From: Oscillospiraceae bacterium
Lineage (GTDB): Bacteria; Bacillota; Clostridia; Oscillospirales; Acutalibacteraceae
NCBI GenBank assembly: GCA_910574935.1
Contig: CAJTCU010000003.1
Location: 186,001-250,000 of the forward strand
Reading direction: 5' to 3'
DNA length: 64,000 nt
Shown piece by piece: positions 5,597 to 51,022 of this stretch. The notes below the pieces were generated by a model, which saw nothing but the letters and a program-made list of their open reading frames with translations, was not told the origin of the DNA and did not search any database. The translations under genes and the position numbers were made by a program. Numbering within the stretch: position 1 is the first letter of the stretch; each line of letters starts with the position of its first letter.

Positions 5597-5761
5597 TAGG
5601 CCTTGTTTGAAAATAGATGAAACGAGGTCCTTTTGCCCAGAAGAGGTCCATTTCAAGGAAAAAACGCAAGTTCATCTTCCGATTCACGAGGATTTTGGAC
5701 GGGGAAAGGGGCCGCTTATGGGCATAAAGACGGCGTTTTCCATGGTTCAAACAGGGACTAG
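5597..5761. repeat. Family A intergenic repeat, copy A1
   Basis: This 165-bp element fills most of the space between 5474 and 5777. Its left end is TAGGCCTTGTTTGAA and the complement of its right end is TAGTCCCTGTTTGAA, so the ends are inverted repeats that start with TA. The interior shares blocks such as TTTGCCCAGAAGAGG and GACGGCGTTTTCCAT with the other seven copies in the window. It encodes no protein. Confidence 0.85.
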
Positions 5762-5777
5762 GTGGAAGGTGGACATC

Positions 5778-7814
5778 CTAGGCCACCCGAATCGGGGCTT
5801 TGGCCTCGCCAAATACTTCTGTTACCCTGCCCTCTTCGTCAAAGGCGTTGTTGTACTGCATCACCGCGTACTCGTTCAACAGTTCCCTATACGGCGTGGC
5901 CGCCCCCTGGCGGTACAGGTTGCCCTGGCTGTCCATGTGCCCAATGGCCGTAACTACTGGCAGGGTCTGGCGCAGCTGCTCTAGGTAGTTGGTATAGGCA
6001 TTGCCTTCCAGCCCAGCAGCCCTTAGCAACAGGCCCGAGAGATAGTTTAGGCTCACCGCCTCGATTTCCTCTCCCTCCAGGGGGTAGTTCGCCCAAATGA
6101 AAAAGGGCACCTGGTACTGGCTCATGGTATACTCAAAGCCATTCTTGTCCTTGAGCAGCGCCCGGGTAAATCCCTCCTCCAGCTTGGGCCAGTGATCCCC
6201 AAAGTACAGCACCACCACCGGGTCCGGCTGTCTCTCAAAATAGGACAAAAGGTCCGAAAGGGCCTGGTCCGCACGGTTGGTCAAGGTCAGGTACTGCTCC
6301 GCCTGGGGCCACTTGCCCTCGTGCCCCTTTACCTGCACATGGCGCACCCGGGCCCGGTAGGCCTCGTCCTCATAGCCGCCGTGGTTCTGGATGGTCACTC
6401 CAAACAGAAACAGCGGTTCCCCCCGCCAGCGCTCGTACTCATAAATCAGCTGGTCATAACAGGACTTGTCACTGGTCAGCCGGTGCTCAAAGGTTCTCTT
6501 TACGTCAAAGATCTCCGCGTCTACAAACTCGTCAAATCCCAGGCACGGGTAGGCGTCCACCCTTTCCCAGGCCTTGCGGTCTCCGGGGTGCACCGCCACA
6601 CTGTGGTAGCCGTACTCCTTGAGGATAGAGGGCAGCGCGGTCTGGGGGCTGTCCACATACTGCTGGTAGGGTTTGCTGCCCGCAGGCAAAAATGCCATGC
6701 TGTTGCTGGTAAGAAACTCATATTCGCTGTTGCAGGTATTGCCCCCGTAAACCGACGAGTAGGCCTTGCCAAAAATGCAGTTTCCTGTGTTTTGCAAAGC
6801 ATGAAGCATAGGCTGGTTGTCCTGGGAAAACTCCAGGGTGCCAAAGCTGCCAAAGTCTGTTGTAGACTCGTTCATAATGGCTACAATGGTGGGCAGGCCT
6901 GAGGGGCTGCCCACCAGCCGGGGGGCAGGCGCCCCGGCCGCCAATTCTTCTACTTTGGCTGGGGAGTATCCCTCGGGCTTATCCACCAGCATGAACTGCA
7001 CATTGGCAAAAAAGCCCGCCGCAATGCCCGTTAGCTCAGAGCTGGCCTTTTGGTTCCAGGCCCATACCGAGATGCCCAGGTTTTCCAGGCCGTTCAGGGG
7101 GAACAGCACAAAGGCCAGCGCCGCCGATACCCCAAAGGCTGTCAGCCGCTCGGTCAGGCGAAAACGACGAGTGGTGGTAAGCCCATCCTTTGGCACCAGC
7201 TTGGCGCAGAGAATCACTGAGCAGATATATCCCAGGGCCGCCACAGCCATTTTTCGGGTAGGCGCATACTCATACCCGCCGGAGACCATCAGGGCAGTGG
7301 CAAAAGACGTGAAGTCCCAGGGCAGAATGGGCTGGCCTCGGAACTGCACCACAAAATAATTGGCAATACCGAAAATAATTGACACCGCCCCGCCAATGGC
7401 CGCCGCCGCCCAGGCCCGCCGGGTCAGCCCAAAGGCCAGAGCAAACACCAAAAGGTAGCACAGGTAGTTGGCCAGCCACCGGGCCTGAGGAAACTCCCAC
7501 AAGCGGGTGCCGTTAATGGCGTCCACCGCGATGAAAGAACCTAAAGGGAGAACCAGCAGCATCAGCCAGCCCAAAGACTGGCGTATGCCCGGGGGCAGGT
7601 CCACGCCCGTTAGGCACAGCACAGCACTGGCGGCGGTAAGGCCGCTGTAGGTAAATATGTACCACCAGGCCGGCGTCTGCTTTCCCGCGCCATCCTCCAT
7701 AAAGGCCAGAGGCCACTCTACTGCGAAAAAGGCCACCGAGACCACCAGCAATGCCCCGGCAGCAAATAGGTTCCTTCGGCTGCGCTCTAAGCGCAGATGT
7801 ACTTTTCCCTTCAT
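5778..7814 (-). CDS. LtaS-like membrane sulfatase-fold enzyme (glycerophosphate transferase type)
   Basis: This 678-aa protein has about five N-terminal membrane helices and a large extracellular alkaline-phosphatase/sulfatase-type domain. Motifs match the lipoteichoic acid synthase group: MNES with an acidic metal ligand near residue 316, GGNTCNSEYEF with the probable nucleophilic Thr near residue 360, and GDHWPK near the end of the domain. LtaS-type enzymes move glycerol phosphate from phosphatidylglycerol onto a growing polymer. The ATG at 7814 is chosen over 7820 because AAAGGGGG lies six bases before it. Neighbouring teichoic-acid-type genes fit. A phosphoethanolamine or phosphoglycerol transferase acting on another glycan is the main alternative. 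Confidence 0.82.
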   Translation of the reverse strand: MKGKVHLRLERSRRNLFAAGALLVVSVAFFAVEWPLAFMEDGAGKQTPAWWYIFTYSGLTAASAVLCLTGVDLPPGIRQSLGWLMLLVLPLGSFIAVDAINGTRLWEFPQARWLANYLCYLLVFALAFGLTRRAWAAAAIGGAVSIIFGIANYFVVQFRGQPILPWDFTSFATALMVSGGYEYAPTRKMAVAALGYICSVILCAKLVPKDGLTTTRRFRLTERLTAFGVSAALAFVLFPLNGLENLGISVWAWNQKASSELTGIAAGFFANVQFMLVDKPEGYSPAKVEELAAGAPAPRLVGSPSGLPTIVAIMNESTTDFGSFGTLEFSQDNQPMLHALQNTGNCIFGKAYSSVYGGNTCNSEYEFLTSNSMAFLPAGSKPYQQYVDSPQTALPSILKEYGYHSVAVHPGDRKAWERVDAYPCLGFDEFVDAEIFDVKRTFEHRLTSDKSCYDQLIYEYERWRGEPLFLFGVTIQNHGGYEDEAYRARVRHVQVKGHEGKWPQAEQYLTLTNRADQALSDLLSYFERQPDPVVVLYFGDHWPKLEEGFTRALLKDKNGFEYTMSQYQVPFFIWANYPLEGEEIEAVSLNYLSGLLLRAAGLEGNAYTNYLEQLRQTLPVVTAIGHMDSQGNLYRQGAATPYRELLNEYAVMQYNNAFDEEGRVTEVFGEAKAPIRVA

Positions 7815-7863
7815 AGGCATCCCCCTTTGCCGCGGTTTCTGTTTCCGCGAGTTTTGTTACAGT

Positions 7864-8994
7864 TTACTGGGCCCGACCCTTCATATATTCCACAATGGCG
7901 TCCGCAATGCGCCTGCTGGCCTGGCCGTCGCCATAGGGGTTCCCTGCCTGGCTCATGCGTTTGTATTCGGCCCCGTCCGTCAGCAGCTGGCGCACCAGCC
8001 CATAGATGGACTCCTCTTCTGTGCCCGCCAGCTTTAGGGTCCCCGCCGTCACCCCCTCGGGACGCTCCGTGGTGTCCCGCAGCACAATTACAGGTTTGCC
8101 CAAAGACGGCGCCTCCTCCTGGATGCCGCCGCTGTCGGTTAAAATCAAGTAGGACCTGGCCAGCAGGTTGTGGAACTCCACCACCTCCATGGGCTCAATG
8201 AGCCGGATGCTCTGGCAGCCGCCCAGCTCCTCTTCCGCAGCCTGGCGTACCAGGGGGTTCAGGTGCACAGGGTATACCACCTTTACGTCTGGGAATTCTT
8301 CCGCTACCCGGCGGATGGCCCGGAACATGCGGTGCATGGGCTGGCCCAGATTTTCCCGGCGGTGGGCGGTGAGCACGATCAGCCGGGAGTCCTTGGCCCA
8401 TTCCAGCACTGGGTCCAGCGCCGGGGCACAATAGTCCTCCCGCACTGTGGTGGAAAGGGCGTCAATGGCCGTGTTTCCCGTCACTACAATGGACTCCGCC
8501 TTCTTGCCCTCGTCCAGCAGGTTCTGGCGGCTCTGCTGGGTGGGGGAAAAGTGCAGGTCCGCCATGCAGCCCACAAACTGCCGGTTCATTTCCTCCGGGT
8601 AGGGGGAATACTTGTTGTGGGTGCGCAGCCCAGCCTCCACATGGCCCACCGCGGTCTGGCAGTAGTAAGCGGCCAGGGCTCCGGCAAAGGTAGTGGTGGT
8701 GTCCCCGTGGACCAGTACCATGTGGGGCTTCTCCTTTTGGATAACCTCTTCCAGGCCCTTCAGCACCCGGGCGGTGATGTCTGAAAGAGTCTGGCCCGGG
8801 CGCATAATATCCAGGTCGTAATCTGGTACAATATGAAAGGCCTCCAGCACCTGGTCCAGCATCTGCCTGTGCTGGGCAGTCACACAAACTTTGCAGTCAA
8901 ACTCAGGCCGGGCGGAGAGCTCCTTTACCAGAGGGGCCATCTTAATGGTTTCGGGTCGGGTACCGAACACTAACATTACTTTAATCTTATCCAT
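7864..8994 (-). CDS. wecB: UDP-N-acetylglucosamine 2-epimerase (non-hydrolysing)
   Basis: This 376-aa enzyme interconverts UDP-GlcNAc and UDP-ManNAc, the donor used by the TagA/WecG enzyme encoded just upstream. The motifs FGTRPETIKMAPL, HGDTTTT, GHVEAGLRTHN and TDSGGIQEEAPSLGKPV are all present and the length is normal. The ATG at 8994 is preferred over 9009 because GAAGGAGG lies just before it. In teichoic acid pathways the same enzyme is called MnaA. Confidence 0.95.
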   Translation of the reverse strand: MDKIKVMLVFGTRPETIKMAPLVKELSARPEFDCKVCVTAQHRQMLDQVLEAFHIVPDYDLDIMRPGQTLSDITARVLKGLEEVIQKEKPHMVLVHGDTTTTFAGALAAYYCQTAVGHVEAGLRTHNKYSPYPEEMNRQFVGCMADLHFSPTQQSRQNLLDEGKKAESIVVTGNTAIDALSTTVREDYCAPALDPVLEWAKDSRLIVLTAHRRENLGQPMHRMFRAIRRVAEEFPDVKVVYPVHLNPLVRQAAEEELGGCQSIRLIEPMEVVEFHNLLARSYLILTDSGGIQEEAPSLGKPVIVLRDTTERPEGVTAGTLKLAGTEEESIYGLVRQLLTDGAEYKRMSQAGNPYGDGQASRRIADAIVEYMKGRAQ

Positions 8995-9027
8995 TGCGTC
9001 CTCCTTCATCTACGAAATAATGCATTA

Positions 9028-9209
9028 TTAAGGCAACCCCGCACAATTCGCAGCTAAGGCCTTAAGCACCGTCTCGCTTGCGTAGTTTCCGTCATATCTC
9101 CCAGATCCCCGTGTCCATCTCCAGCTTGACCGCCCTCAATCTGTACAATTTAACAAAAAATCTGGCTGCGCAATACAGTACTTAGAGCGGCGCGGCATTG
9201 CCGCCTTAA
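9028..9209. repeat. Family B intergenic repeat, copy B1
   Basis: This 182-bp element lies in the gap 8995-9324. It starts TTAAGGCAACCCCGCACAAT and ends GCCGCCTTAA. Over its full length it matches the reverse complement of the element at 24751-24930, including the shared internal blocks TTAAGCACCGTCT and CTCAATCTGTAC. The rest of the gap shows no other feature. Confidence 0.85.
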
Positions 9210-9324
9210 AACAAGTTTCGGTGGCACACGGTCTGCCAACATTTTCCCCCACACCCAGACCGCGCCATGCGCCCAAGCCCGCTGCTTTATGGCGGAAGCC
9301 TGCCGGGTTGGACCCAAAAGCCCC

Positions 9325-10062
9325 TTAGCGGGGACTAGAGGCGGAGTTTGCGGCGCTCTTTTTCACTTGGCGCAGAAACTGAATATTGTTCCGGTAAAAC
9401 CGCCCTAGCCGGGAGGGCTCACGTGCAATACGGTACAGCCACTCGGTGTTGGTTTTTACAAACAGGGCCGGGGCCCGGCGCTTACTGCCGCTAAGCACGT
9501 CAAAGGAGCCCCCCACCCCCATAAACACCCCTTTGGAAAACTCCTTTAGGTGCCGGTAAATGAGCAGCTCCTGGGCCGGAACTCCCAAGGCCACCAGCGT
9601 AAGGTCCGGGGCCTGGGCAGCAATCTGGTCAAAAATGCCGTCCTTATCCTTTTCATAACCGTTGCGGTAGCGTACCGTCATGGCGGGGTAGGTCTTTCTC
9701 AGCTTCTCCGCCAGGGCCGAGACCACCTCTTCCTTTGCGCCCAACAAAAAGACGCTTTTCCCTGCCCGTCCGGCCTCCCGCAGCAGCTTTTCCGCCAGGT
9801 CCACCCCAGTAATGCGTTCTTTCGCGGGCAGCCCCAGCATCTCCATGGCTTTTACCACACTGATGCCGTCCGGAACGATCTCCGCCTGATCCCAGAGCAG
9901 CAGTTCCCGGATGGCGGGGTCTTTTTCGGCATGCATAATAATTTCGGGGTTCGCGGTTACAATGAACTTCTTTTCCCCGGCCAGCATCGCTCTGGCGGCC
10001 TCTTTCGCGTAGTCATCCGCCGTGCCGCCATAGGCCCGGCACAGATAATCCTCAATCGCCAT
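9325..10062 (-). CDS. tagA: TagA/WecG/CpsF-family N-acetylmannosaminyltransferase
   Basis: This 245-aa GT26 glycosyltransferase adds ManNAc (or a related sugar) to undecaprenyl-diphospho-GlcNAc, the linkage-unit step of wall teichoic acid synthesis. Family signatures are TANPEIIMHAEKD near the N-terminus, PDGISVVKA, ERITGVDL, FLLGAKEEV and the GVGGSFDVLSGSKRRAP segment. It lies downstream of a polyprenyl-phosphate sugar transferase and upstream of the UDP-GlcNAc epimerase that would make its donor. The acceptor cannot be read from the sequence. Confidence 0.93.
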   Translation of the reverse strand: MAIEDYLCRAYGGTADDYAKEAARAMLAGEKKFIVTANPEIIMHAEKDPAIRELLLWDQAEIVPDGISVVKAMEMLGLPAKERITGVDLAEKLLREAGRAGKSVFLLGAKEEVVSALAEKLRKTYPAMTVRYRNGYEKDKDGIFDQIAAQAPDLTLVALGVPAQELLIYRHLKEFSKGVFMGVGGSFDVLSGSKRRAPALFVKTNTEWLYRIAREPSRLGRFYRNNIQFLRQVKKSAANSASSPR

Positions 10063-10329
10063 ATCCTAAAAATCCCCTTTCTTTATATTCTTCATTTTCT
10101 TGGCTTTTTGGCCCCATCCACTGTGGGAAAGCGTCTGCTTTCCGGCCGTTTCAAGCCCAGCATACCGTGTCCATCCGCTTCCTGTTCACGCGGTGGCGCG
10201 CCTAGCAAGGTCAGCTGCCTACAGGGCCGGTCCAGGAACGCTGTTTTAAAGCTGCCGCTTCCCCCATTCAAGGCAGCTTTCGCTATCCTCAAAAGCTCTT
10301 TCTGCCGCTGGGTGGTTCTCTTTTTTTAG

Positions 10330-11745
10330 TTAGTCCGCTTCTTTTTCTGCTTTCTTCTTTTTTCGGTCCCGTTCCCGGTCTGTGTCAAAATCATATAGCT
10401 CCTCCTGGCCAAAGGCCTCTGTACTCTCCGAGGCTTTCAAAAACACGGTAATGGTCTGGAAGATCAGCTTAAAGTCCTGCCAGATGCTATAGTTCTCAAT
10501 ATACATCAGGTCCATCACCAGCTTGTCCTTGGGCGAAGTATTATACTTGCCGGAGATCTGCGCCAGGCCTGTCAGTCCTGCCTTCATCCGCAGCCGGTAG
10601 GAAAACTCCGGCAGCTCACTGGTGTATTTTTCTACATTTTCCAGCATCTCCGGACGAGGCCCCACCACGGTCATGTCTCCATTCAGGATATTCAGCAGCT
10701 GGGGCAGCTCGTCCAGCCGGAACTTCCGCAGCACCTTACCTACCCGGGTAATCCGGTCATCGTTGGCTGTTACTGACTTATGGATGGAGTTCTCTTCCTT
10801 CATGGTGCGGAACTTGTACACCTCAAACACCCGGCCGTATTTGGTCAAGCGTTTTTGCTTATAGAACACCTTCCCGTGGTCGTCTAGCTTGATGGCCACA
10901 GCGCAGGCCAGCATAATAGGGCTGGCCACTACCAAACCCACCACAGCCACGGCCAGGTCTGTCAACCGTTTGATGATGCGCTGTTCCATGGTCAGGTCCT
11001 TGGCAGTATACATCACCAGGGATTTGTCGTCTAGCGCCACGTACTTTGCCCCTTGGGCCACCACATCAATGGTCTCGAAATTATAATAAATATTTTTTTG
11101 GGTCTGGTAACAGAAGGAGATCAGATCATTGCGCTCTTTGGCAGGCACGTCATACAGAAACACGGTGTCATTGCGCAGGATAACGTCCAGCACCTTTGGG
11201 TCGTCATAGCGGATGATCTCGTCAATCTGGTACTGCTTTGGGAACCGCTTAATCTTTGGGATAATACTGCCCAGGCTCTGCCTGGAGGAGGAGATAACGC
11301 AGCAGTTCTCCGGCGGCTCCAAAGAAAAATAGACATAGTTGCCAAAATAGGCGAAAAAGATAATCACAAGAACCTGCAAAATCATCACCAGTAGGAGAAG
11401 GTGGGGGGTTTCGTAGACAAAGTGGTCGTTATTAAACTGGCTGGTGTTCATAATAGACAGCTGCAAATGGGTAACCAGGTCTGTAATAATAGTGGCTAAG
11501 GCCATGGAGTGAATAATCGGTTTACTCTTCTGGGTACCCACCGCGTAACCGCCGTATACGGACATCAGCGAAATGCCCAGCACCACAAAGGTAACCATGG
11601 TAACACCCGTGGTACGGGAGAGGTTGAAAAGCCATGGGTTGTGTATGCTAAAAATGCCGAAAAAAATGCCAAAAAGGGAGGCGAACAGGGCCATCTTCAG
11701 TAAAAAGACCACGGTTCGTTTTAGTTTCTTTATCATTCCATGCAA
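10330..11745 (-). CDS. Polyprenyl-phosphate hexose-1-phosphate transferase (exopolysaccharide priming)
   Basis: This protein of about 470 aa has several N-terminal membrane helices, a CoA-binding-like middle region and a C-terminal bacterial sugar transferase domain with FYKQKRLTKYGRVFEVYKF, RKFRLDELPQLLNILNGDM and VVGPRPEM. It would start a lipid-linked glycan by loading a sugar phosphate onto undecaprenyl phosphate. The start is uncertain: a TTG at 11745 lies 11 bases after AAAGGA, while the ATG at 11736 has no good spacing. It heads a probable operon with tagA after a long leader. The charged tail (RERDRKKKKAEKEAD) is unusual but plausible. Confidence 0.9.
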   Translation of the reverse strand: MHGMIKKLKRTVVFLLKMALFASLFGIFFGIFSIHNPWLFNLSRTTGVTMVTFVVLGISLMSVYGGYAVGTQKSKPIIHSMALATIITDLVTHLQLSIMNTSQFNNDHFVYETPHLLLLVMILQVLVIIFFAYFGNYVYFSLEPPENCCVISSSRQSLGSIIPKIKRFPKQYQIDEIIRYDDPKVLDVILRNDTVFLYDVPAKERNDLISFCYQTQKNIYYNFETIDVVAQGAKYVALDDKSLVMYTAKDLTMEQRIIKRLTDLAVAVVGLVVASPIMLACAVAIKLDDHGKVFYKQKRLTKYGRVFEVYKFRTMKEENSIHKSVTANDDRITRVGKVLRKFRLDELPQLLNILNGDMTVVGPRPEMLENVEKYTSELPEFSYRLRMKAGLTGLAQISGKYNTSPKDKLVMDLMYIENYSIWQDFKLIFQTITVFLKASESTEAFGQEELYDFDTDRERDRKKKKAEKEAD

Positions 11746-11958
11746 AGTAACATCATTCCTTTATATATAAACCACCCTTACGGTGGAGTATTCTAGAAAG
11801 TATCCAAAGGCAGACACATCGCACGGTCAAGGGGCGGCCTTTTGCTGGGAACCCACATATTACACGGCATGATGGCTTTGAGCAACATTAGAACGCCGGT
11901 CTCGCCCAACGCCAGGTTCCGTGATAGGGCCTTTATTTACCAACTTCCCAAATATTCT
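11746..11958 (-). promoter_or_regulatory. Long untranslated leader of the glycan-priming operon
   Basis: About 210 bases separate the promoter at 11965-11993 from the first codon. The leader contains short inverted repeats, for example CCACC/GGTGG near 11773-11786, and no convincing reading frame apart from MMLLCME, which overlaps the start of the downstream gene. This is long for a simple leader and could hold a regulatory RNA. No known riboswitch core was recognised. Confidence 0.35.
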
Positions 11959-11964
11959 TTGGAC

Positions 11965-11993
11965 ATTATAGCACATACTGCCCGTAAATGCAA
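11965..11993 (-). promoter_or_regulatory. Promoter of the glycan-priming operon
   Basis: TTGCAT (11988-11993) and TATAAT (11965-11970) on the minus strand are separated by 17 bases. Confidence 0.65.
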
Positions 11994-12071
11994 AACACTG
12001 TTTATTAACATTTCTTTAATATGGCTTTTTCCTGTCTATTTTGCGGGGAAAAGCTAGAACTATACTAGACC

Positions 12072-12108
12072 AAGGGGCAAAACGGCGGCCTTTATCCGTT
12101 TTGCCCCT
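12072..12108 (-). terminator. Terminator-like hairpin overlapping the TagF-like stop codon
   Basis: The arms AGGGGCAAAACGG and CCGTTTTGCCCCT form a perfect 13-bp stem around the end of the gene that stops at 12092. The minus-strand sequence after it is only weakly T-rich, so termination is probable but not certain. Confidence 0.6.
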
Positions 12109-15753: not shown

Positions 15754-15917
15754 TAGGCCTTTGTTTGAACATAGGGAGAATGGCGGATTTTTAACCAGGG
15801 GAGGTCCATTACAAGGAGAATTCCGCAAGTCAACCCAGCGGTTGACCCGGATTTTTCACGCGGAACGGGGCCTCTTCTGGGAAAAAACGGCGTTTTCCAT
15901 GTTTCAAACAATCCCTA
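15754..15917. repeat. Family A intergenic repeat, copy A2
   Basis: This 164-bp copy has left end TAGGCCTTTGTTTGAACAT and a right end whose complement is TAGGGATTGTTTGAAACAT. The interior contains GGAGGTCCATTACAAGGAG and AAACGGCGTTTTCCATG. It is immediately followed by a second, more diverged copy. Confidence 0.88.
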
Positions 15918-16081
15918 GAATCTGTTTTTCAAATCGGAAAAATGCTGGATTTTTGCTCAGAAACAAGTGGGTTCCAGGAAACAACCGCAAGAAATGCTGG
16001 CGCCTTTCCAGGATTTTTGACGCCGAAGCCACCATTTCTGGGCAAAACTGACCCTGTTTCGGCGTTTTCTAACAGACTCTG
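15916..16081. repeat. Family A intergenic repeat, diverged copy A3 in tandem
   Basis: This element starts TAGAATCTGTTTTTCAAAT where A2 ends, and the complement of its right end is CAGAGTCTGTTAGAAAACGC. Shared family blocks include a TTTTTGCTCAGAAAC segment and an inverted copy of GGCGTTTT. The two elements together fill most of the gene-free interval 15540-16086. Confidence 0.65.
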
Positions 16082-24750: not shown

Positions 24751-24930
24751 TTAAGGCAACACCGCACAATTCTAAGTACCGTATTGGGCAGTCAGATTTT
24801 TCTTCAGAGGGTACAGATTGAGCGCCGTCCATCTCACCATTGACAAGCGAAAGCTGTGCCCTATCACGGAAAATCTGCAAGCAAGACGGTGCTTAAGGCG
24901 CCAGCCGCGAATGGTGCGGGGTTGCCTTAA
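24751..24930. repeat. Family B intergenic repeat, copy B2
   Basis: This 180-bp element lies in the gap 24691-25026. It has left end TTAAGGCAACACCGCACAAT and a right end whose complement is TTAAGGCAACCCCGCACCAT, so its ends match with only two differences over 20 bases. The whole element matches 9028-9209 in the opposite orientation. No other feature is seen in the gap. Confidence 0.9.
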
Positions 24931-25026: not shown

Positions 25027-26484
25027 TTATTGGCTAAGGCAATTCAGAATTTCCCGGATGACCGCCCGCTCGTCAAAGGGATGCTTCACCCCCTGAATCT
25101 CCTGGTAGTCCTCATGGCCCTTGCCCGCCAGCACAATGATGTCTCCCTCCTGGGCATTCTCCAGACACCACCGAATCGCCTCTCGACGGTCCGGAATCAC
25201 CATATATTCCCCGCTGGTCTTGCCCAAACCTACCTTTATATCCTCTATAATGTCCAGCACGTCCTCAAACCGGGAATTGTCCGCCGTAACCACTGACAGG
25301 TCCGCCAGCCTTCCGCTGGCCTCCCCCATCTCATACCTGCGCACCTTGGGGCGGTTGCCTCCCGCGCCGAACAGGCAGATGAGCCGCCGGGGCTCATACT
25401 CCCGCAGGGTGCGCAGCAGACTCTCCATACTTACGGCGTTATGGGCATAGTCCAGCAGCAGGGTATAGGGGCCGGGCACCGGCACCGGCTCCACCCGGCC
25501 CTTGACCCGCACCGCGCGCAGCCCCTCTTTCATGGCTTCTACAGAAATCCCCAGCTGATGGCAGCAGCCAATAGCTGCCAAGGCGTTGTAAGCGTTGAAT
25601 TTCCCGGGAACCCCCACCTGGACGGTAAAGCTTAGGTCCCCGGCCGCCTCAAAGGCCACCCCCAGCATCCCGGGCCGGCTCAGATGGCGGCAGTTTTCCC
25701 CCCGCAGCTGGGCGGCGGGGGAGAAGCCGTAGCGGTACGCCGTGCAGGCGCTTTGGGCCAAAAGCTCCTCTGCGGCCGGGTCGTCGGCGTTCACCACCCC
25801 CACCGGACACATGCGGAACAGCATAGCCTTGCAGGCCAGATACTCCGCCATATCCTTGTGCTCCACACCGCCGATGTGGTCCTCGGAGAAGTTGGTAAAC
25901 ACCCCCAGGGCAAAGGGCAGGCCGTAGACCCGGTCGTCCTTCAGACCGATGGAGCTGACCTCCATTACCGCATATTCGCAGCCCCTGTCCGCCATCCGGC
26001 GCAGGTGCTTTTGCACCTCGTAGCTGATGGGGGTGGTGTTGGGCAGTGGGGTCACCTCCTCCCCGATTACCGCGCCAATGGTGCCCATCACCCCGGTCTT
26101 GTGCCCGGCGGCTTCTAGGATGGAACGGATCATATAGGCCGTGGTGGTCTTGCCCTTGGTGCCCGTAATGCCAATGACCTTTAGGGCGTTCTTGGCGGGA
26201 TCGCCGAAAAAGGCGGCGCTCATTAGAGACAGGGCCTTTTTCGTGTCCTCCACCAGGATCACCTGGGTTCCAGGGGCCTCTACCGGTTCCTGGGCAATCA
26301 CCACCGCGGCCCCAGCCCCGGCCGCCCCGGCGGCAAACCGGTGGCCATCCGAGGCGGATCCCCGCAGGCAGAAAAACGCGCAGCCAGGGCAGGCCCTGCG
26401 GGAATCGTAGACCAAGTCGGTTATTTCCACATCCTGAAAGCCCCCGGTCAGGCCCAGGGAAGCCAGCAGCTTTGAGAGAAGCAT
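25027..26484 (-). CDS. murE: UDP-MurNAc-L-Ala-D-Glu--2,6-diaminopimelate ligase
   Basis: This 485-aa Mur ligase adds the third residue of the stem peptide. It has the ATP loop GITGTKGKTTTAY at residues 105-117, the central YAVMEVSSIGLKDDRV segment, and the C-terminal LFGAGGNRPKVRRYEMG block. The amino-acid specificity loop reads DNSRFED rather than the common DNPR; the Arg that contacts meso-diaminopimelate is kept, so DAP is the likely substrate. The ATG at 26484 is preferred because AAAGAAAGGA precedes it and it matches the usual N-terminus. Confidence 0.93.
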   Translation of the reverse strand: MLLSKLLASLGLTGGFQDVEITDLVYDSRRACPGCAFFCLRGSASDGHRFAAGAAGAGAAVVIAQEPVEAPGTQVILVEDTKKALSLMSAAFFGDPAKNALKVIGITGTKGKTTTAYMIRSILEAAGHKTGVMGTIGAVIGEEVTPLPNTTPISYEVQKHLRRMADRGCEYAVMEVSSIGLKDDRVYGLPFALGVFTNFSEDHIGGVEHKDMAEYLACKAMLFRMCPVGVVNADDPAAEELLAQSACTAYRYGFSPAAQLRGENCRHLSRPGMLGVAFEAAGDLSFTVQVGVPGKFNAYNALAAIGCCHQLGISVEAMKEGLRAVRVKGRVEPVPVPGPYTLLLDYAHNAVSMESLLRTLREYEPRRLICLFGAGGNRPKVRRYEMGEASGRLADLSVVTADNSRFEDVLDIIEDIKVGLGKTSGEYMVIPDRREAIRWCLENAQEGDIIVLAGKGHEDYQEIQGVKHPFDERAVIREILNCLSQ

Positions 26485-26531
26485 AAAAAATAAGTCCTTT
26501 CTTTCCATTTTTAGTGAGATGCGTTCCACTT

Positions 26532-26695
26532 TAGGGCTGGTTAGAAAATAGAGAAAGTGCCGTCTTTTTGCCCTGGCCGGTGCGGTTTGACGAAGAAAGC
26601 CGCAAGGAATCCTTTCGTATTACGAGGATTTTCCACACACCAATCCGCCCGGACCGGGAAAAAGACAGTGTTTGCGATTTTTCAAACAAGCCTTA
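26532..26695. repeat. Family A intergenic repeat, copy A4
   Basis: This 164-bp copy begins 48 bases upstream of murE. Its left end is TAGGGCTGGTTAGAAAATAG and the complement of its right end is TAAGGCTTGTTTGAAAAAT. It shares GAAAGCCGCAAGGAATCCTT with A6. Confidence 0.85.
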
Positions 26696-26948: not shown

Positions 26949-27114
26949 TAAGGCTTGTTTGAAACATGGAAAACGCCGTCTTTTCACCCAGAAGCGGCCC
27001 TCTTCCGCGTCGAAAGTCCTCGTAATACCGCAAGGATTTCTTGTGGTTTTCTCCTGGAAGCTGACCACTTCTGGTCAAGAATCCGTCATTCCCTCTATGT
27101 TCAAACAAGCCCTA
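26949..27114. repeat. Family A intergenic repeat, copy A5 (least degraded ends)
   Basis: This 166-bp copy has left end TAAGGCTTGTTTGAAACAT and a right end whose complement is TAGGGCTTGTTTGAACAT. A4 and A5 together occupy most of the gene-free interval 26485-27147; the 250 bases between them show no recognised feature. Confidence 0.9.
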
Positions 27115-27942: not shown

Positions 27943-28110
27943 TTAGAACCTGTACCAATAGGATATTGCGTATGCCTTTCCGGCAGATTTTTCCATTGGA
28001 CTGCGTTACAAAACCTTATCAATCGTCAGATTGTCGGCGGTTCCGCGCCTTGCCACTGACAAAATCTGCTCGAAAATCCATACACCAATCTTATCGGTGC
28101 AGGTTCTTAG
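27943..28110. repeat. Family C intergenic element with 25-bp imperfect inverted ends
   Basis: This 168-bp element has left end TTAGAACCTGTACCAATAGG and a right end whose complement is CTAAGAACCTGCACCGATAA. It fills most of the gap between the YhhN gene and the MATE gene. The design is like families A and B, but the sequence is different. Only one copy was seen in this window. Confidence 0.7.
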
Positions 28111-33004: not shown

Positions 33005-33172
33005 TAGAGCCTGTTTGAACATAGAGGAAGTGCCGGATTTTCGCGCAAGACGCGGCGGTTTCAAGGAGAAATCCGCGGGGAATCCTTTCTGGTATTTCGA
33101 GAATTTCCCACACAAAAATCCACCCATATGGGGCGGAAAGAACGGCGTTTCCGATGTTTCAGACAAGCCCTA
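33005..33172. repeat. Family A intergenic repeat, copy A6
   Basis: This 168-bp copy has left end TAGAGCCTGTTTGAACATAG and a right end whose complement is TAGGGCTTGTCTGAAACAT. With E3 it fills most of the gene-free interval 32823-33267. Confidence 0.88.
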
Positions 33173-37390: not shown

Positions 37391-37391
37391 C

Positions 37392-43623: not shown

Positions 43624-43652
43624 TTGACTTTCTCTCCGCCATGCGTTATAAT
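43624..43652 (+). promoter_or_regulatory. Near-consensus promoter of the structured RNA
   Basis: TTGACT (43624-43629) and TATAAT (43647-43652) are separated by 17 bases. The inferred transcription start is about 43659, at the base of the first hairpin. Confidence 0.8.
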
Positions 43653-43658
43653 GGTTCC

Positions 43659-45619: not shown

Positions 45620-45794
45620 CCGGGCCACCGGCGTGTTTCTGAAGAGGACGCATTACGCAGCCGCGAGCAGGGCTTTCAGCTCTGCTCTTTCCCACTGGGA
45701 TGCGGTACCTAAAGCGGTAGGAGAGACAGGCCCCCAGGCTGCGGGATGTTTTTCCCTTTCGGCCCTCACATCTCTCACCAGAAGGAGTGAGCCT

Positions 45795-46592
45795 ATGTCC
45801 GCCCTATTAGAAGTAAAAAATCTATCCGTTGCCTTTTCCACTCCCGCCGGAACCACACAAGTTCTGCGGCAGGTGGATCTTTCCCTAAAGGCGGGGGAAA
45901 CGCTGGCCGTAGTGGGCCCCTCTGGCTGCGGGAAGAGCACTCTGTGCAAGAGCATTCTCCGCCTACTGCCTAAAAACGCCCATACCAGCGGCCAAGTGAT
46001 GCTGGCAGGGGAGGACCTCATCCAAAAAAGCGAAAAAGAGTTGTGCCGCCTGCGGGGCCGGGCCATTGGGCTAGTATTCCAAGACCCTATGACCGCCCTG
46101 AACCCTAGCCGCACGATGGGTTCTCAGCTAGCGGAAGCAGTGCGGGCCCATGGTCCACGGCTGAGCAGACCGGCCCTTGGAGCCCGGGTGGAAGAGCTGC
46201 TGGCCCTGGTGGGCATTGAGCATCCGAAGGAACGGGCCCGGCTTTATCCCCACCATTTTTCCGGGGGAATGCGCCAGCGGGTTGTGCTGGCTATGGCCCT
46301 GGCGGGCGGGCCCCAAATCCTTTTGGCGGACGAGCCCACCAGCGCCCTGGATGTGACTACCCAAGCGCAAATTTTAGAACTGTTGAAGAACTTCCAGCGC
46401 CGCCAAGGCCTTGCCATGGTATTGGTCACCCATGACTGGGGCGTAGTGGCCCGGGTGGCGGACCGGGTGGCCGTGATGGAAGCGGGGAAGATTATACAGT
46501 GCGGCACGGCAGAGGAAATCTTCCGCGCCCTGCCCCCCGCTGCTTTTAGCCCGGAATTTGTTTATTGTAAGCATATTTCAAAAGCGGTTTAA
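45795..46592 (+). CDS. Peptide-type ABC transporter ATP-binding protein, short C-terminus
   Basis: This 265-aa ATPase has Walker A GPSGCGKST, the Q loop VFQDPMTALNP, signature FSGGMRQRV, Walker B LLADEPTSALD and the switch His in VTHDWG. It matches DppD/OppD up to about residue 240, then the usual C-terminal oligopeptide domain (HPYT..L region) is replaced by the AT-richer tail SPEFVYCKHISKAV, directly followed by a family A repeat remnant. AGAAGGAG marks the start. No second ATPase gene is present in the operon. Confidence 0.9.
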   Translation: MSALLEVKNLSVAFSTPAGTTQVLRQVDLSLKAGETLAVVGPSGCGKSTLCKSILRLLPKNAHTSGQVMLAGEDLIQKSEKELCRLRGRAIGLVFQDPMTALNPSRTMGSQLAEAVRAHGPRLSRPALGARVEELLALVGIEHPKERARLYPHHFSGGMRQRVVLAMALAGGPQILLADEPTSALDVTTQAQILELLKNFQRRQGLAMVLVTHDWGVVARVADRVAVMEAGKIIQCGTAEEIFRALPPAAFSPEFVYCKHISKAV

Positions 46593-46607
46593 AATGATGC
46601 AGAGTTT

Positions 46608-46714
46608 TAGGGCAACACCGCAAGCCAACCGAGCGGTGGACAAGGTTTTTTCCCGCGGAAAGGGGCCTCTTTTGGGCAAAAAGACGGCGTTTCCGATGTT
46701 TCATACCAGCCCTA
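46608..46714. repeat. Family A intergenic repeat, deleted copy A7
   Basis: This 107-bp form keeps the right half (its complement starts TAGGGCTGGTATGAAACAT) and both TA ends, but lacks about 60 central-left bases. It lies between the ATPase and permease genes, inside the operon. Confidence 0.75.
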
Positions 46715-46765
46715 GCCTCTTTTGAACCAACAGCTGCCCTATAATACGCCAAAGGAGCTGGCCCC

Positions 46766-47746
46766 ATGAAAAAAACGCGCCCTATCCTGATCCGCATTCT
46801 AAAGCAGGCTCTTGGCCTTTTGCTCAGCCTATTTCTTTTCTCCGTGCTGGTGTTTTGCCTTTCCCGGCTGGCCCCCGGGGACCCTTTGGCCTCTTATTTC
46901 GGGGACCGGATCAACCGGATGGGCCCAGAGGAGCGGGCCTGGGCGGAAAACCGCCTGGGTCTGAACGCGCCCCTGCCTGTCCAGTATCTGCGGTGGCTTC
47001 AAGGGGCTCTACAGGGGGACTTTGGCATCTCTTACAAATATAAGCAGGACGCTGCCCAGGTGATCTTCAGCCGGATTGGCAACACCCTGGCCTTGGGTGG
47101 GCTGGGCTTTGTGTTGACCTTTGGCCTGGCCCTGTTTTTAGCTGTGTTCTGCGTCTGGCATCAGGACCGGATGGTGGACCGGGTAATCTGCAAAGTGGGC
47201 ACTGCCGGGGGCTGCATACCAGAGTTTTGGCTTTCCCTTGTGCTCATTCTGGTCTTTTCTGTCCAGCTGCGCTGGCTGCCCAGCTCGGGGGCGTACACTG
47301 TGGGCGGGGGCGGCTTTTGGGACCGGCTGCGGCACCTGGTCCTGCCGTTGACCGTGGTGGTATGCAGTCATCTATGGTACTATGCCTACATGCTGCGCAA
47401 CCGCCTGGCAGAAGAAGCCCGGGCCGACTATGTGCTGCTGGCCCGGGCCAAGGGCCTGAACCGGGCCCAGGTGATGGTCCGGCATCTGCTGCCCAGCGCC
47501 CTGCCCTCGTACCTTAGCCTTATGGCCATTTCTGTGCCCCATATTCTGGGGGGCACCTATGTGGCGGAGACCGTGTTTTCTTACCCGGGCCTGGGCGCTC
47601 TGGCCTATGAGAGCGCCCGCTACCAGGACTACAATCTGCTTATGCTGCTGTGTCTGCTGACCGGCGGGCTGGTCATCCTGTGCGGCGCTATTTCCCGGGC
47701 CATCAGCCGCCGGCTGGACCCGCGCATGAAGGAGGGAACGCGGTGA
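46766..47746 (+). CDS. Peptide-type ABC permease (DppB/OppB family)
   Basis: This 326-aa membrane protein has about six helices and the DppB pattern: N-terminal LARLAPGDPL-like LSRLAPGDPLASYF and the EAA loop ARADYVLLARAKGLNRAQVMVRHLLPSALP. It forms the channel with the next gene's product. AAAGGAG precedes the ATG. Confidence 0.93.
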   Translation: MKKTRPILIRILKQALGLLLSLFLFSVLVFCLSRLAPGDPLASYFGDRINRMGPEERAWAENRLGLNAPLPVQYLRWLQGALQGDFGISYKYKQDAAQVIFSRIGNTLALGGLGFVLTFGLALFLAVFCVWHQDRMVDRVICKVGTAGGCIPEFWLSLVLILVFSVQLRWLPSSGAYTVGGGGFWDRLRHLVLPLTVVVCSHLWYYAYMLRNRLAEEARADYVLLARAKGLNRAQVMVRHLLPSALPSYLSLMAISVPHILGGTYVAETVFSYPGLGALAYESARYQDYNLLMLLCLLTGGLVILCGAISRAISRRLDPRMKEGTR

Positions 47747-48579
47747 AAGCCCTGTTGGCAAAAAAACAAGCTGGGCGGAAGTTTCCCCGTTTGGCTGCGG
47801 CTGTGCTGGGGAGCATTTTGTTTGGCTGCCTTTTCGCGGAGCTTCTCTCTTCCCACGACCCCACCTACATGGACTTGTCCCACTGCGCCCTGCCCCCAGG
47901 CCCAGTGTTCCTCTTTGGCACGGACGCCATGGGACGGGACATCTTTTCCATGATCTGGTCCGGTGGACGGGTGTCCCTGTTCATTGGCCTCACTGCCACA
48001 GCAGTATCAACCGGAGCCGCTGTGGTGTTCGGCACGGCTTGCGGCTGTGCGCCCTCCTGGCTAAACGCCCTGCTCACCCGGACGGCAGAGCTTCTGCTTA
48101 GTGTGCCGAGCCTGCTGGCCGTGGTGTTTCTCCAGGCTATTCTGGGGCAGAAGAACCCCCTGGCCCTGGCTTTTGTTTTAGGGCTTACCAGCTGGCCAGG
48201 CATGGCAAAACTGGTGGCCACAGAGGTACTGCGGATTCGCGGCAGTGAGTTCGTCGTGGCGGCCCGAGCCCTGGGCAGCGGGTTCTTCCGGGTGCTGGGG
48301 CGGCACCTGGCCCCAAACTTTCTCCCTTCTATTCTATTTATGGCTGTGATGGAAGTGCGCAGCGCAATGATGGCGGAAGCCACCCTTAGCTTTATGGGGC
48401 TTGGACTTCCGCCGGAATTCATCAGCTGGGGCGGGATGCTCTCTTTGGCGGAAAAGGCCCCGGGAGACTGGTGGGTGGTGGTCATTCCCGGGCTTTTTCT
48501 TACCGCTACGCTGCTGTGCGTCACCAGTCTAGGAAACTGGCTGCGGGAAAGCGGGCATGGGAAGATGAGCAATCTATAA
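47743..48579 (+). CDS. Peptide-type ABC permease (DppC/OppC family)
   Basis: This 278-aa permease starts at GTG 47743, overlapping the DppB stop by four bases (GTGA) after AAGGAGGG. The family motif HPLGTDAMGRD appears as LFGTDAMGRDIFS, and the EAA loop is VVAARALGSGFFRVLGRHLAPN. An upstream in-frame Met at 47650 lies inside the previous gene and is not needed. It completes the two-channel set. Confidence 0.93.
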   Translation: MKALLAKKQAGRKFPRLAAAVLGSILFGCLFAELLSSHDPTYMDLSHCALPPGPVFLFGTDAMGRDIFSMIWSGGRVSLFIGLTATAVSTGAAVVFGTACGCAPSWLNALLTRTAELLLSVPSLLAVVFLQAILGQKNPLALAFVLGLTSWPGMAKLVATEVLRIRGSEFVVAARALGSGFFRVLGRHLAPNFLPSILFMAVMEVRSAMMAEATLSFMGLGLPPEFISWGGMLSLAEKAPGDWWVVVIPGLFLTATLLCVTSLGNWLRESGHGKMSNL

Positions 48580-48609
48580 AAAGCATGAAACGCATTACAC
48601 GGAAAAGGA

Positions 48610-48765
48610 GGCGTGTTCCAAACGAAGCGTTTAAAGGCGAGGCTCCGACGAACAAACGGTAAAAGTTTCGTCCACCTTTTCAAAAGTTACGGGTTTTTTT
48701 AGGGGCAGAGCCCCTAAACCGCCTGAGGCCAAAATGTTGTCATAAGCTCTTCTTTTGGACACTCC
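48610..48765. repeat. Family D repeat, copy D2
   Basis: This 156-bp element has ends GGCGTGTTCCAAACGAAGCG and TTTTGGACACTCC, the same inverted ends as D1, with extra interior sequence including an AGGGGC/GCCCCT hairpin. It ends 16 bases before a TTGACT/TATAAT promoter. Confidence 0.6.
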
Positions 48766-48781
48766 TGGAAAAGGGGTAAGC

Positions 48782-48809
48782 TTGACTTCTCCTCTCGATT
48801 TGCTATAAT
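48782..48809 (+). promoter_or_regulatory. Promoter of the sugar isomerase operon
   Basis: TTGACT (48782-48787) and TATAAT (48804-48809) are separated by 16 bases. The stretch GCTTGACTT and the TCTC-rich spacer match the promoter that follows D1. Confidence 0.75.
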
Positions 48810-48841
48810 AAAGAAAATCCGCCTCGAAAGGATGCTTCTCT

Positions 48842-49711
48842 ATGAACAAACTGACGATTACCGGTTTCTCCGACGAAATTTCCCCCGCCTTTGACCAACA
48901 GCTGGCCGCCCTTGGGGAGTTCCAGGTCACCCACCTGGAGCTGCGGGGCGCGGACTCTGTCAATGTCTCAGACCTGACCCCTGCCCAGCTGCAAGAAATA
49001 AAGGCCAAGCTGGCAGCCGCGGGTATACAAGTATCCTCTATTGGTTCCCCCATCGGGAAAATTGGCATAGAAGAACCCTTTGCCCCCCACCTGGAAAAAC
49101 TGAAACGCACCCTGGAGATTCAGAAAGAGCTTTCCGCCCCCTATCTGCGCATGTTCAGTTTTTATCTCCCCCAAAACGCCCGGCCGGAAGATTACCGCTC
49201 CCAGGTGCTGGAGCGCCTGGGAGCCATGGTGGAGGAAGCCGCCCGCTGGGACGCGGTGCTTCTCCACGAAAACGAAAAGGGCATTTTCGGGGACGCCGCC
49301 CCCCGTTGTCTGGAACTGATGGAAGCTCTCTCTGGCCCCCACTTTGGGGCTGTGTTTGACTTTGCCAATTTTGTGGAGGTGGGCCAGTCTACCCTGGAGG
49401 CCTATCAGCTGCTAAGTCCCTACATCCGGTACATTCACATTAAGGATGCCACCGCGGAAAAGAAAATTGTGCCCGCCGGCCAGGGCGTGGGGCATGTGAA
49501 GGAGATTCTCAGCCAGCTGATTACCGGAGGTTGGCGGGGCTTCCTGTCTTTGGAGCCTCACCTCACCGACTTTGCCGGGCTGGCGGCACTGGAAAAGGAC
49601 CCGGCCAAAAGAGAGGGCGTTTTGGACGGAAAGTCTGCCTGGAAGCTGGCTCTAAATGCCTTACGGGAGATTCTGGAGGGCATTCCCGCCGCTAAGGAGG
49701 CAATGGCATGA
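48842..49711 (+). CDS. Sugar phosphate isomerase/epimerase (xylose isomerase-like TIM barrel)
   Basis: This 289-aa protein has the AP-endonuclease-2/xylose-isomerase-like barrel with metal-ligand positions HENEKG, FDFANF, YIHIKD and LSLEPHL. Members isomerise or epimerise keto-sugars and inositol derivatives. The exact substrate is unknown. GAAAGGA lies before the ATG. The next gene overlaps by four bases, so the two work in one pathway. Confidence 0.88.
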   Translation: MNKLTITGFSDEISPAFDQQLAALGEFQVTHLELRGADSVNVSDLTPAQLQEIKAKLAAAGIQVSSIGSPIGKIGIEEPFAPHLEKLKRTLEIQKELSAPYLRMFSFYLPQNARPEDYRSQVLERLGAMVEEAARWDAVLLHENEKGIFGDAAPRCLELMEALSGPHFGAVFDFANFVEVGQSTLEAYQLLSPYIRYIHIKDATAEKKIVPAGQGVGHVKEILSQLITGGWRGFLSLEPHLTDFAGLAALEKDPAKREGVLDGKSAWKLALNALREILEGIPAAKEAMA

Positions 49712-50697
49712 ACAAACTAACTTGCGCTGTGGTGGGATGCGGAGGTATCGCTCATGTACATAGCGGCGCGCTAACCCGCCAGGAAACCGCCCAGCTGGCG
49801 GCTTTTGCCGACATCCGTCTGGAGCGCGCCCAGGCCTTTGCCCAGGAATTCGGCGGCAAAGCCTACGGCTCTCTGGAAGAACTGCTGGACCAAGAAGCCC
49901 TTGACGTGCTACACATCTGCACACCCCACTACCTGCATGTTCCCATGGCCCAGGAGGCTGCCCGGCGGGGCATTCATGTGTTTACTGAAAAGCCCCCGGC
50001 CATGACCCGTGCCCAGTGGGAGGCTTTTCAACAAATAAAAGGGGTCCGTCTGGGGGTCTGCTTCCAGAACCGCTATAACCCCAGCGTGGCCTATGTACGG
50101 CAGCTATTCGACTCCGGCAGGCCTGGGGCTGTGCTGGGAGCCAGGGCCTTTGTCACTTGGCATCGGGACGCCCCCTATTATACCGAGAGCGGCTGGCGGG
50201 GCGCCCTCTCTACCGAGGGCGGCGGCGTGCTCATCAACCAGTCCATCCATACCCTGGACCTAATGGTACAGTTTTTAGGTCAGGGCCAGGTTCTGGGGGC
50301 CAGCCTAGCTAACCGGCACCTACAGGGAATCATCGAAGTGGAGGACACCCTGGAGGCTGCTATAGACTTTGGCGGCAAAACCGGTCTATTCTACGCCACC
50401 ACTGCCCACTGCACAGACTCTCCCGTCCTGCTGGAGCTGACTTGCGAAAACGCCACCCTGCGCCTGGAGGGCGAAGAGGTCACGGTCCGCTGGAAAGACG
50501 GCTCTATCGAGCGGCAAGATTTCTCCCAAGCCTCCCACTTGGGAGGCAAAACCTACTGGGGAGCCAGCCATGGACGCTGCATAGAGGACTTTTACCGCTG
50601 CGTCCTCAGCGGCGGGGCCTTTCGCAATGACATCTCCGGCGTGGCGGACACTGTGGAGCTGATGCTAAGGCTGTATGAGACCGCAAGAGCTTCTTAA
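49708..50697 (+). CDS. Gfo/Idh/MocA-family oxidoreductase
   Basis: This 329-aa NAD(P)-dependent sugar oxidoreductase has the Rossmann motif VVGCGGIAHVHSGA, the EKP motif FTEKPPAMT and a C-terminal barrel with GGGVLINQSIHTLDL. It oxidises a hydroxyl of a cyclic sugar or inositol. Its ATG overlaps the stop of the isomerase gene. A clear terminator follows 100 bases after the stop codon. Confidence 0.93.
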   Translation: MNKLTCAVVGCGGIAHVHSGALTRQETAQLAAFADIRLERAQAFAQEFGGKAYGSLEELLDQEALDVLHICTPHYLHVPMAQEAARRGIHVFTEKPPAMTRAQWEAFQQIKGVRLGVCFQNRYNPSVAYVRQLFDSGRPGAVLGARAFVTWHRDAPYYTESGWRGALSTEGGGVLINQSIHTLDLMVQFLGQGQVLGASLANRHLQGIIEVEDTLEAAIDFGGKTGLFYATTAHCTDSPVLLELTCENATLRLEGEEVTVRWKDGSIERQDFSQASHLGGKTYWGASHGRCIEDFYRCVLSGGAFRNDISGVADTVELMLRLYETARAS

Positions 50698-50797
50698 AAA
50701 GTCCACACGAATGCGAGTCCCCAGGGGACAGCGGACTGGTCTCTATCTCTCCCCTGGATGTACTGCCTGAAACACAGCCCCAAACCGGGGCTTACAC

Positions 50798-50828
50798 AAA
50801 AAAAGAGCCACCCAGGCGGCTCTTTTTT
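50798..50828 (+). terminator. Bidirectional Rho-independent terminator
   Basis: GAGCC (50805-50809) pairs with GGCTC (50818-50822), flanked by seven A on the left and six T on the right, so the A and T tracts extend the stem. Confidence 0.85.
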
Positions 50829-50916
50829 ATTTTTTGTTTATTCAAGTGCTGTCCAGAAGAAACCCGCCGGAAATGAGAGCCTCAGCTTTTCCAGGCCACT
50901 TAAAGCAAAAGAAGTT

Positions 50917-51022
50917 TAGGGCTTGTTTGAAATTGAAACATCCAAAACGCCGACTTTTTGCCCAGAAGAGGCCATCTTCCGCGTCAAAAATCCTCATTCC
51001 CTCTATGTTTCAATAAGCCCTA
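50917..51022. repeat. Family A intergenic repeat, deleted copy A8
   Basis: This 106-bp form has left end TAGGGCTTGTTTGAAATTG and a right end whose complement is TAGGGCTTATTGAAACAT. It keeps the left half and both ends but lacks about 60 central bases after AAAAATCCTC. It lies upstream of the promoter at 51039. Confidence 0.85.

Follow-up and report, generated by a model that had tools for sequence, protein, structure and literature searches.

Dispersed TA-ended elements with a covarying core hairpin in a genome of the Oscillospiraceae

What are the short repeats that lie scattered between the genes of a 64,000-nucleotide stretch of an Oscillospiraceae genome (assembly GCA_910574935.1, contig CAJTCU010000003.1, positions 186,001 to 250,000; this whole stretch is called the window), and by what means were they spread? 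An earlier note, made from the sequence of the window, had listed eight such elements of about 165 bp with inverted TA-ended termini, starting at positions 5597, 15754, 15916, 26532, 26949, 33005, 46608 and 50917, and had taken them for miniature inverted-repeat transposable elements (MITEs). The analysis described here gives a probability of roughly 0.85 to the reading that they are MITEs which duplicate a TA on insertion, are served in trans by a partner of the IS5 type, and carry a structured core. All eight elements were recovered at these starts, seven with the core and the eighth with a deleted centre, using a covariance model (R1, 83-180 bits) built from 15 copies, the eight window copies among them. 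The similarity survived alignment of the eight intervals as one family, with a mean column identity of 73-74%.

Copies, termini and target site

Many further copies had been expected in the genome, and at least 141 places were found in the 4.17 Mb assembly (G000, 109 contigs). The R1 search gave 148 hits, seven of which were opposite-strand repeats of the same place; 141 is a lower bound because 150 of 1859 candidates were scored. A 19-base end pattern, with up to three mismatches allowed, occurred 241 times in the same genome, against six times for the reversed control. The lengths of 108 full-length copies ranged from 122 to 187 bp, with 76 copies of 164-169 bp and 18 of 186-187 bp. Shorter forms were also observed, both as R1 hits of about 113 bp and as element-like stretches that have both ends and measure 51-59 bp. 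The family ends are TAGGGCTTGTTTGAA and its complement, forming inverted ends of about 17 bp, and a second end type, TAGAGTCTGTTTTAAAA, is present in some copies; mixed copies have it on one side. The inverted, TA-ended termini were borne out in 37 diverse copies, where 15 end pairs were complementary in 90.5% of cells. In a 186-bp subfamily, for example L130 (C5:162902-163087), a second, perfect hairpin, GTAGTTAGC-GCA-GCTAACTAC, adjoins the core.

When R1 was applied to 60 genomes, G000 included, with up to 48 candidates scored per genome, matches (E<=1e-6) were obtained in 14, namely in 13 of the 29 genomes of the genus and in one genome elsewhere in the order. A pattern scan was also made of named genomes. 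Eight of the 20 stretches found belonged to Acutalibacter sp. ABMPRH_146_1 or Neglectibacter sp. X58 and one to Candidatus Caccousia, and the remainder resemble chance matches in unrelated organisms.

The elements are short and non-coding, have inverted ends and a duplicated TA, and occur in high copy number, which supports their assignment to MITEs. The duplication of TA at the target, suggested in the earlier note, was seen in a close relative, G014, where four of the five testable window sites were empty and held a single TA. The aligned stretches of G014 were 90-97% identical to the window, and the 500-base flanks 87-97%, with one intergenic stretch at 78%. The empty sites were those of the tandem pair 15754/15916 and of the copies at 26532, 26949 and 33005, that is, of five of the six testable copies. 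At the empty site of 26949, one additional base difference adjoined the single TA. The sites of 5597 and 46608 had no coverage in the G014 alignment. Two copies were found nested inside other copies, at C13:29052-29399 and C4:43228-43570, and in both, judged by eye, the sequence read across the insert with one TA matches other copies. The copies are diverse and most testable sites are unshared with G014; therefore either several lineages have been mobile or some sites have been lost.

The target was found to be YTAR. Among the 83 of 108 full-length copies that had two TA ends and no abutting neighbour, Y preceded the TA in 90% and R followed it in 96%, with a weaker preference for G at -3 (43%) and C at +3 (46%). 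Six pairs of full-length copies in G000, including the window pair that meets at 15916-15917, abut with one common TA, and all six are arranged head to tail. By a rough estimate, the number of tandem pairs is near that given by the abundant YTAR ends. The uniform orientation of six pairs, a 1 in 32 two-sided outcome, is only suggestive. Genome-wide, 10 of the 108 full-length sites lay inside an open reading frame (ORF) of at least 150 aa, whereas the same sequence has 1326 of its 2596 YTAR sites in such ORFs, as counted by crude ORF calling with the elements cut out by a script. The genes around 95 classified sites showed no clear bias in orientation, with 31 sites (+,+), 28 (-,-), 21 (+,-) and 15 (-,+).

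The core hairpin, its recurrence and its possible role

The strongest compensatory change was found in a central hairpin, which is absent from the earlier note. In 37 copies less than 90% identical to one another, a 7-bp central stem was paired in 86.9% of cells (63.9% when shuffled). Its covariation score was 0.481, compared to 0.125 for shuffled alignments and 0.206 for the best slide, and one of its pairs occurs as CG, UA, GC and AU. For a 64-nt core (alignment A3, 37 rows) 14 pairs were obtained, with 88.0% of cells formed, eight pairs changed on both sides and a score of 0.335, against 0.124 for shuffled alignments and 0.158 for the best slide. A3 was not above the shuffles in its number of further pair types, which 149 of 500 shuffles reached. 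Alignments A2 and A3 both started from 38 representatives of less than 90% identity, drawn from 77 copies with a 22-nt centre; L050 (from G049) is omitted from A2 and L104 from A3.

The core consists of an outer helix of an A-tract and a U-tract with CC/GG, an asymmetric UC/UUGC internal loop, the 7-bp stem and a C-G-closed loop, which is mostly GNNA. A GNNA loop was present in 37 of 53 distinct centres, 36 of them closed by C-G and one by T-G, and 21 of the 37 were GNRA; this tally covers the 79 of 123 extracted centres whose length is exactly 22 nt, and 14 of 137 unique copies yielded no centre. Conservation is not confined to the stems: it extends to the G and A of the loop, to the UC/UUGC internal loop and to TGCGT and CCTTG in the flanks. 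The outer arms are imperfect.

It had also been proposed that a transcript of the element would fold end to end and so influence mRNA stability or termination. Single copies did fold (z -6.1 and -3.8) and the ends pair as described above, but the consensus given by RNAalifold was weak for both 15 and 37 copies; for the 37 copies it held 12 pairs, seven in the end helix, three in the central hairpin and two others. A conserved end-to-end RNA fold was dropped on account of these few consensus pairs. Termination fared no better, since three of 46 terminator-like sites (in 19.9 kb) lay inside elements and about two were expected from length; a terminator function was rejected, the share being near that expectation.

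A second covariance model, R2, was made from 37 cores, two of which come from the window. On the window it gave 36-68 bits for the seven core-bearing copies and 16.6 bits for the centre-deleted copy, and its top score on 12 control loci (89 kb, mostly from unrelated organisms) was 15.7 bits. Rfam 15 gave no hits on the window at gathering scores. On 12 loci, at E<=1, Rfam matched a T-box beside the core and gave two weak miRNA matches far below the gathering score, with none to the core. The T-box leaders (RF00230) beside core-bearing elements lie at L252:1202-1424 and L258:1621-1833, the second below the gathering score. A scan of IMG/VR for the exact core pattern, a weak test of virus carriage, gave no hits.

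The core was also found outside the genus. With R2 (E<=1e-5), matches were obtained in 14 of 295 genomes and 11 of 148 genera of the order, and in 20 of 391 genomes and 14 of 223 genera of the class. These two samples overlap, and both include G000 and G049, the latter having supplied one row of R2; strict filters were used, with 13-17 candidates scored per genome. The core-bearing elements found in other genera and in other orders of the class have different terminal repeats. Ends of the TAGGG type were found in G140, G049 and G120, GACTGATTGGCGGTAAGGACAA in G083, G039 and G064, and AGGGCGTGCGGATTAGGG in G272, and there are long TA-ended repeats with TAAGCATTAGGGAGTCGA (L285), TAGGCAATGGGGAATCGA (L280) and TAGCCTAACAGTAATAAT (L289). 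When cores were aligned across end types (A4, 35 rows), 84.9% of cells paired and nine of 14 pairs were changed on both sides, the outer pair 19:47 occurring as CG, GC, AU and UG. The score of 0.324 compares to 0.116 for shuffled alignments and 0.137 for the best slide. A4 holds 25 of 30 order-level loci (three from the own genome, L269 and L276 being left out) and ten known cores, and six of its type III rows are misaligned in the outer helix. As judged from these alignments, the core is shown to be a base-paired module with many compensatory changes, common to elements with different ends. Two other pairs of class-level matches, L282/L293 and L283/L292, both left out of the long-type alignment A5 described below, have the appearance of short elements with a single hairpin and with end types different again (GGGCAC... 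and TAAACGCTGATTAAATA...). In G140 (L251 and others), seven of the 17 core matches listed lie less than 90 bases from the start of a contig, which is expected where near-identical repeats break an assembly.

A longer form of about 277 bp has a pair of hairpins in mirror image, with about 80 bp between each hairpin and its own end. The ends and both hairpins were located in 12 of the 15 rows of alignment A5. In 11 of these rows the distance from the left end to the first loop is 80-84 bp, and that from the right end to the second loop is 78-83 bp. The corresponding distances in L290, which was ended about 12 bp too far in, are 68 and 71 bp; positions are approximate to 1-2 bases. The exceptions are L281 and L255, which were mis-ended, and L263, which is without the second hairpin. 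The second hairpin (15 rows) has a loop that is mostly UGAC, is 93.3% paired and has six of seven pairs changed on both sides. Identity in A5 averages 79% in the core columns, compared to 52-67% elsewhere. In the 165-bp family copy L039 the loop is at the midpoint, 82.5 bp from either end. For several long elements a three-way junction based on the terminal repeats is predicted, qualitatively and by eye, and the 275-nt element L291 folds at z -8.6. In L280, L284, L289, L291, L295 and L296 the inner part of the terminal repeat reads (G/A)GTTCG(A/G), resembling a tRNA T-arm. ARAGORN was run on nine loci, L296 among them, to see whether the ends of the 277-bp elements (GGTTCGA) derive from a tRNA. 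It placed no tRNA at the elements and two elsewhere in these loci, and such an origin was rejected.

The role of the core can be inferred in more than one way. The fold may well serve the element itself, as a folded single strand or a cruciform during transposition, although we rate this at slightly under even odds. This reading is proposed because the layout is mirror-symmetric, because there is no clear bias in gene orientation and because four of five testable sites are unshared with the relative. A paired core, the lack of a clear orientation preference and unshared sites together mean that selection would most likely have acted on still-moving lineages. The mirror-image spacing suggests a role at the level of DNA or of a single strand; GNNA loops and a conserved internal loop are also expected from an RNA role.

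The rival that survives best takes the core for such an RNA-level device: a transcribed MITE would fold as a processing site, a regulator or a protection of the host transcript, and selection would keep the stems. The predominance of C-G-closed GNNA loops, the conserved asymmetric internal loop and the compensatory pairs in both helices are in its favour. However, the elements show no clear orientation preference to the adjacent genes, the core had no Rfam match in the window or in 12 loci, and the two hairpins of the long elements are placed in mirror image. An RNA role is a serious but somewhat doubtful explanation.

The paired centre could also be a mutational by-product. Correction by template switching is known in imperfect palindromes, where it makes one arm match the other and mimics compensatory change, and the element is itself an imperfect palindrome. 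Arm correction does not, however, account for the conservation outside the stems (G and A of the loop, UC/UUGC internal loop, TGCGT and CCTTG in the flanks), and the outer arms remain imperfect. This origin of the pairing is unlikely.

Candidate transposase partner

The ends of the elements were compared with those of transposase loci. As a rule, targets of the IS5 family read YTAR. Among loci of the genus with the IS5-family domain PF13340, a matching end pair was found in five of 30. Two of them, L204 (G017, 862 bp; L188 is the same element) and L203 (G022, 851 bp), have ends that are like those of the MITE at 17-18 of 19 positions. A decayed copy of 830 bp, L215 (G000), has one end that agrees at 17 of 19. 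The other two carry the second end type: L205 (G000, 1025 bp, the same as L180), which has stops in the transposase frame and whose left end agrees at 19 of 19 with the MITE copies L048, L049 and L116, and L219 (G010, 839 bp, the same as L193).

L203 contains overlapping ORFs of 113 and 151 aa. Both exceed the cut-off score of NF033580, the IS5 model of NCBIfam; one matches PF13340 and the other PF01609. In the part of the source cited, members of the IS427 group of the IS5 family are described as 832-865 bp long, with two overlapping ORFs and a frameshift motif, and their direct repeats as 2 bp except in one element (PMC3281130). The TA repeat of the MITE agrees with this repeat length. Like the IS427 group, L203 and L204 are of 851 and 862 bp with TA at both ends and 17-bp inverted ends that resemble those of the MITE, and L203 has the two overlapping ORFs; its placement in the group is by length, ORF layout and TA, not by a tree. 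Unlike the members of this group, such as IS1248 and ISPaes1, the MITE is without a transposase, and its interior is dissimilar to the candidate partner insertion sequence (IS).

From these ends and domains we infer that an IS5-family (IS427-like) transposase moves the MITEs. The enzyme would act in trans, recognising the ends of about 17 bp, and would insert the element at Y-TA-R with duplication of the TA. Both new junctions would again read YTAR, and elements would therefore insert beside or into one another. An IS5-type enzyme with YTAR insertion would account for the ends and the TA, and also for the copies that stand in tandem or nested.

A number of observations weigh against the reading of TA-duplicating MITEs with an IS5-type partner and a structured core. 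In regard to mobility, G014 has a full-length element, oppositely oriented, at the site of 50917, and the empty sites could be losses, the G014 comparison being unpolarised by an outgroup. In regard to the partner, the draft genome G000 yielded no intact IS whose ends match; only the decayed or interrupted L215 and L205 are seen there, and the left end of L215 matches at only 13 of 19 positions. G022 has the intact-looking L203 yet no R1 hit, and G014, G013 and G027 have many or some copies yet no PF13340 hit. The other 25 of the 30 PF13340 loci are without a matching end pair; several are fragments or cut by contigs, and others have other ends. By eye, the subterminal sequence of the IS is unlike the MITE interior. 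In regard to the core, the shuffle controls ignore relatedness, which the slides retain, and RNAalifold on the first 15 copies keeps just three pairs. R2 was built once the core was known, its E-values are rough, and G049 matches by construction. The long-type rows of A5 were chosen by eye, the 15 being 10 of 17 new class loci and five order loci.

The earlier note had favoured an IS630/Tc1-type transposase. IS630-type copies (PF13358) are present in G000, and RUP, which also has a TA duplication and TA-ended termini, is thought, in the part of the source cited, to be moved by IS630-Spn1 (PMC2229807). However, among 28 PF13358 loci in ten genomes, several of them cut by contig ends, none had a matching end pair flanking the transposase, and the YTAR preference fits the IS5 family. 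Movement by an IS630-type enzyme is accordingly very improbable. The same note had seen no transposase in the window, and ten scanned window ORFs were without a transposase domain. A tblastn search of the window with the two ORFs of the IS5 element and the two longest open frames of an IS630 locus gave no match, other transposase families being unsearched.

Related systems and further features of the window

The elements are, like REP/BIME, intergenic, hairpin-forming and present in many copies, and of the neighbouring ORF ends, 29 of 101 3' ends and 18 of 89 5' ends are at most 50 bp away. That they are host-selected intergenic regulators (REP/BIME-like or terminator elements) which only look mobile is scarcely credible, since their inverted ends are well defined, they duplicate a TA, some are nested in others, and site occupancy differs in a close relative. 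REPs are not known to have such an architecture of ends and target duplication, and the inverted ends and TA duplication argue against REP/BIME.

Bacterial MITEs have mostly been described as deletion remnants of one insertion sequence. As a family, the present MITE is of a known kind, RUP-like or Correia-like; what is new is a structured core independent of the ends. The interior rather than the ends appears to be long-lived, as the covarying fold recurs with different terminal repeats in several orders. If the core is needed in cis, it shows that a conserved structural module can form part of non-autonomous elements in bacteria. Tentatively, and with less than even confidence, the elements could be placed in a class-wide MITE superfamily, in which the element needs the common structured core while the terminal repeats, and presumably with them the transposase partner, are exchanged. 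The core, as one hairpin about 82 bp from either end or as the two mirrored hairpins of the long form, would then be a fold that works as a single strand or as RNA, in transposition or in persistence within the host. This would be a prokaryotic counterpart of the conserved domains of short interspersed nuclear elements (SINEs).

RUP of Streptococcus pneumoniae is described, in the part of the source cited, as an element of 107 bp in 108 copies that is associated with IS630-Spn1 (PMC2229807). Like RUP, the present family has about 100 or more intergenic copies, ends in common with an IS, and a TA target. The partner is IS630 there and would be IS5 here, and no common structured core is reported for RUP in that part of the source. 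The Correia/NEMIS elements of Neisseria, compared by description only and from parts of the sources, are also of 100-200 bp, with TA termini, inverted ends, high copy number and size classes that arise from an internal segment; the hosts differ (PMC2229807, PMC10969869). The CORE-SINE and V-SINE families of eukaryotes are likewise described, in the part cited, as having a domain common to non-autonomous elements with different ends across wide taxa (PMC6887750). Unlike those SINEs, which are retroposons, the elements here are bacterial DNA-type MITEs with a covarying hairpin as core, and the likeness is one of analogy only. A survey of structured RNA in the human microbiome gives 250 palindromic candidates of 3161, according to the part of it cited, and the core could be among them (PMC8040213). 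In a literature search, which had most subscription journals outside its reach, neither these repeats nor their core were found to have been described.

Within the window, the placement of the eight copies between genes, judged by eye, fits the main ORFs. Six of the eight are full length (164-168 bp), and those at 46608 and 50917 are truncated. For each full-length copy, the nearest relative among the fetched sequence is situated elsewhere, at 84-95% identity. The copy at 5597-5760 (minus strand, 164 bp) has its core hairpin at 5647-5709 and scored 158 bits with R1 and 62.4 bits with R2. The tandem pair, both on the minus strand, consists of 15754-15917, with its core at 15805-15868, and 15916-16080, with its core at 15967-16030, the TA being common to both. 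The second of these belongs to a subfamily with TAGA(R)TCTGTT-type ends, and its closest other copy is 94.5% identical. The copy at 26532-26695 (minus strand, core 26582-26645) lies 3 bp from an ORF with Mur ligase domains (25027-26529). The top R1 match in the window, at 180 bits (R2 62.9 bits), is the copy at 26949-27114 on the plus strand, with its core at 27000-27064. The copy at 33005-33172 (minus strand, 168 bp) has its core at 33055-33120.

A truncated or rearranged copy occupies 46567-46714 on the minus strand (R1 start 46567 or 46608), with a core match at 46600-46663. Its clear homology covers 46604-46714, about 107-111 bp, and it lies between two co-directional ORFs, the downstream one encoding an ABC-transporter permease. 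The centre-deleted copy, at 50917-51022 on the plus strand, is 106 bp long, retains both ends and gave 83 bits with R1 and 16.6 bits with R2. Its counterpart at G014:C208:1860-2024 is the full-length element in opposite orientation already mentioned. The flanks of the two differ, which therefore points to independent insertion or rearrangement.

Other repeats were also observed in the window. At 24753-24925 lies a different repeat of about 173 bp, AAGGCAACACCGC...GCGGGGTTGCCTTA, which is absent from G014; by eye, similar sequence occurs within L180, in its decayed IS, and at about 26.6 kb in C13. A third inserted element, at 27944-28106, has the ends TAGAACCTGTAC / GTGCAGGTTCTTA and a single TA at the G014 site, and scored only 14.5 bits with R1. 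Another repeat, at about 48610-48770, has many partial matches in G026, G014 and G010 and ends in the inverted repeat TTTAGGGGCAGAGCCCCTAAA.

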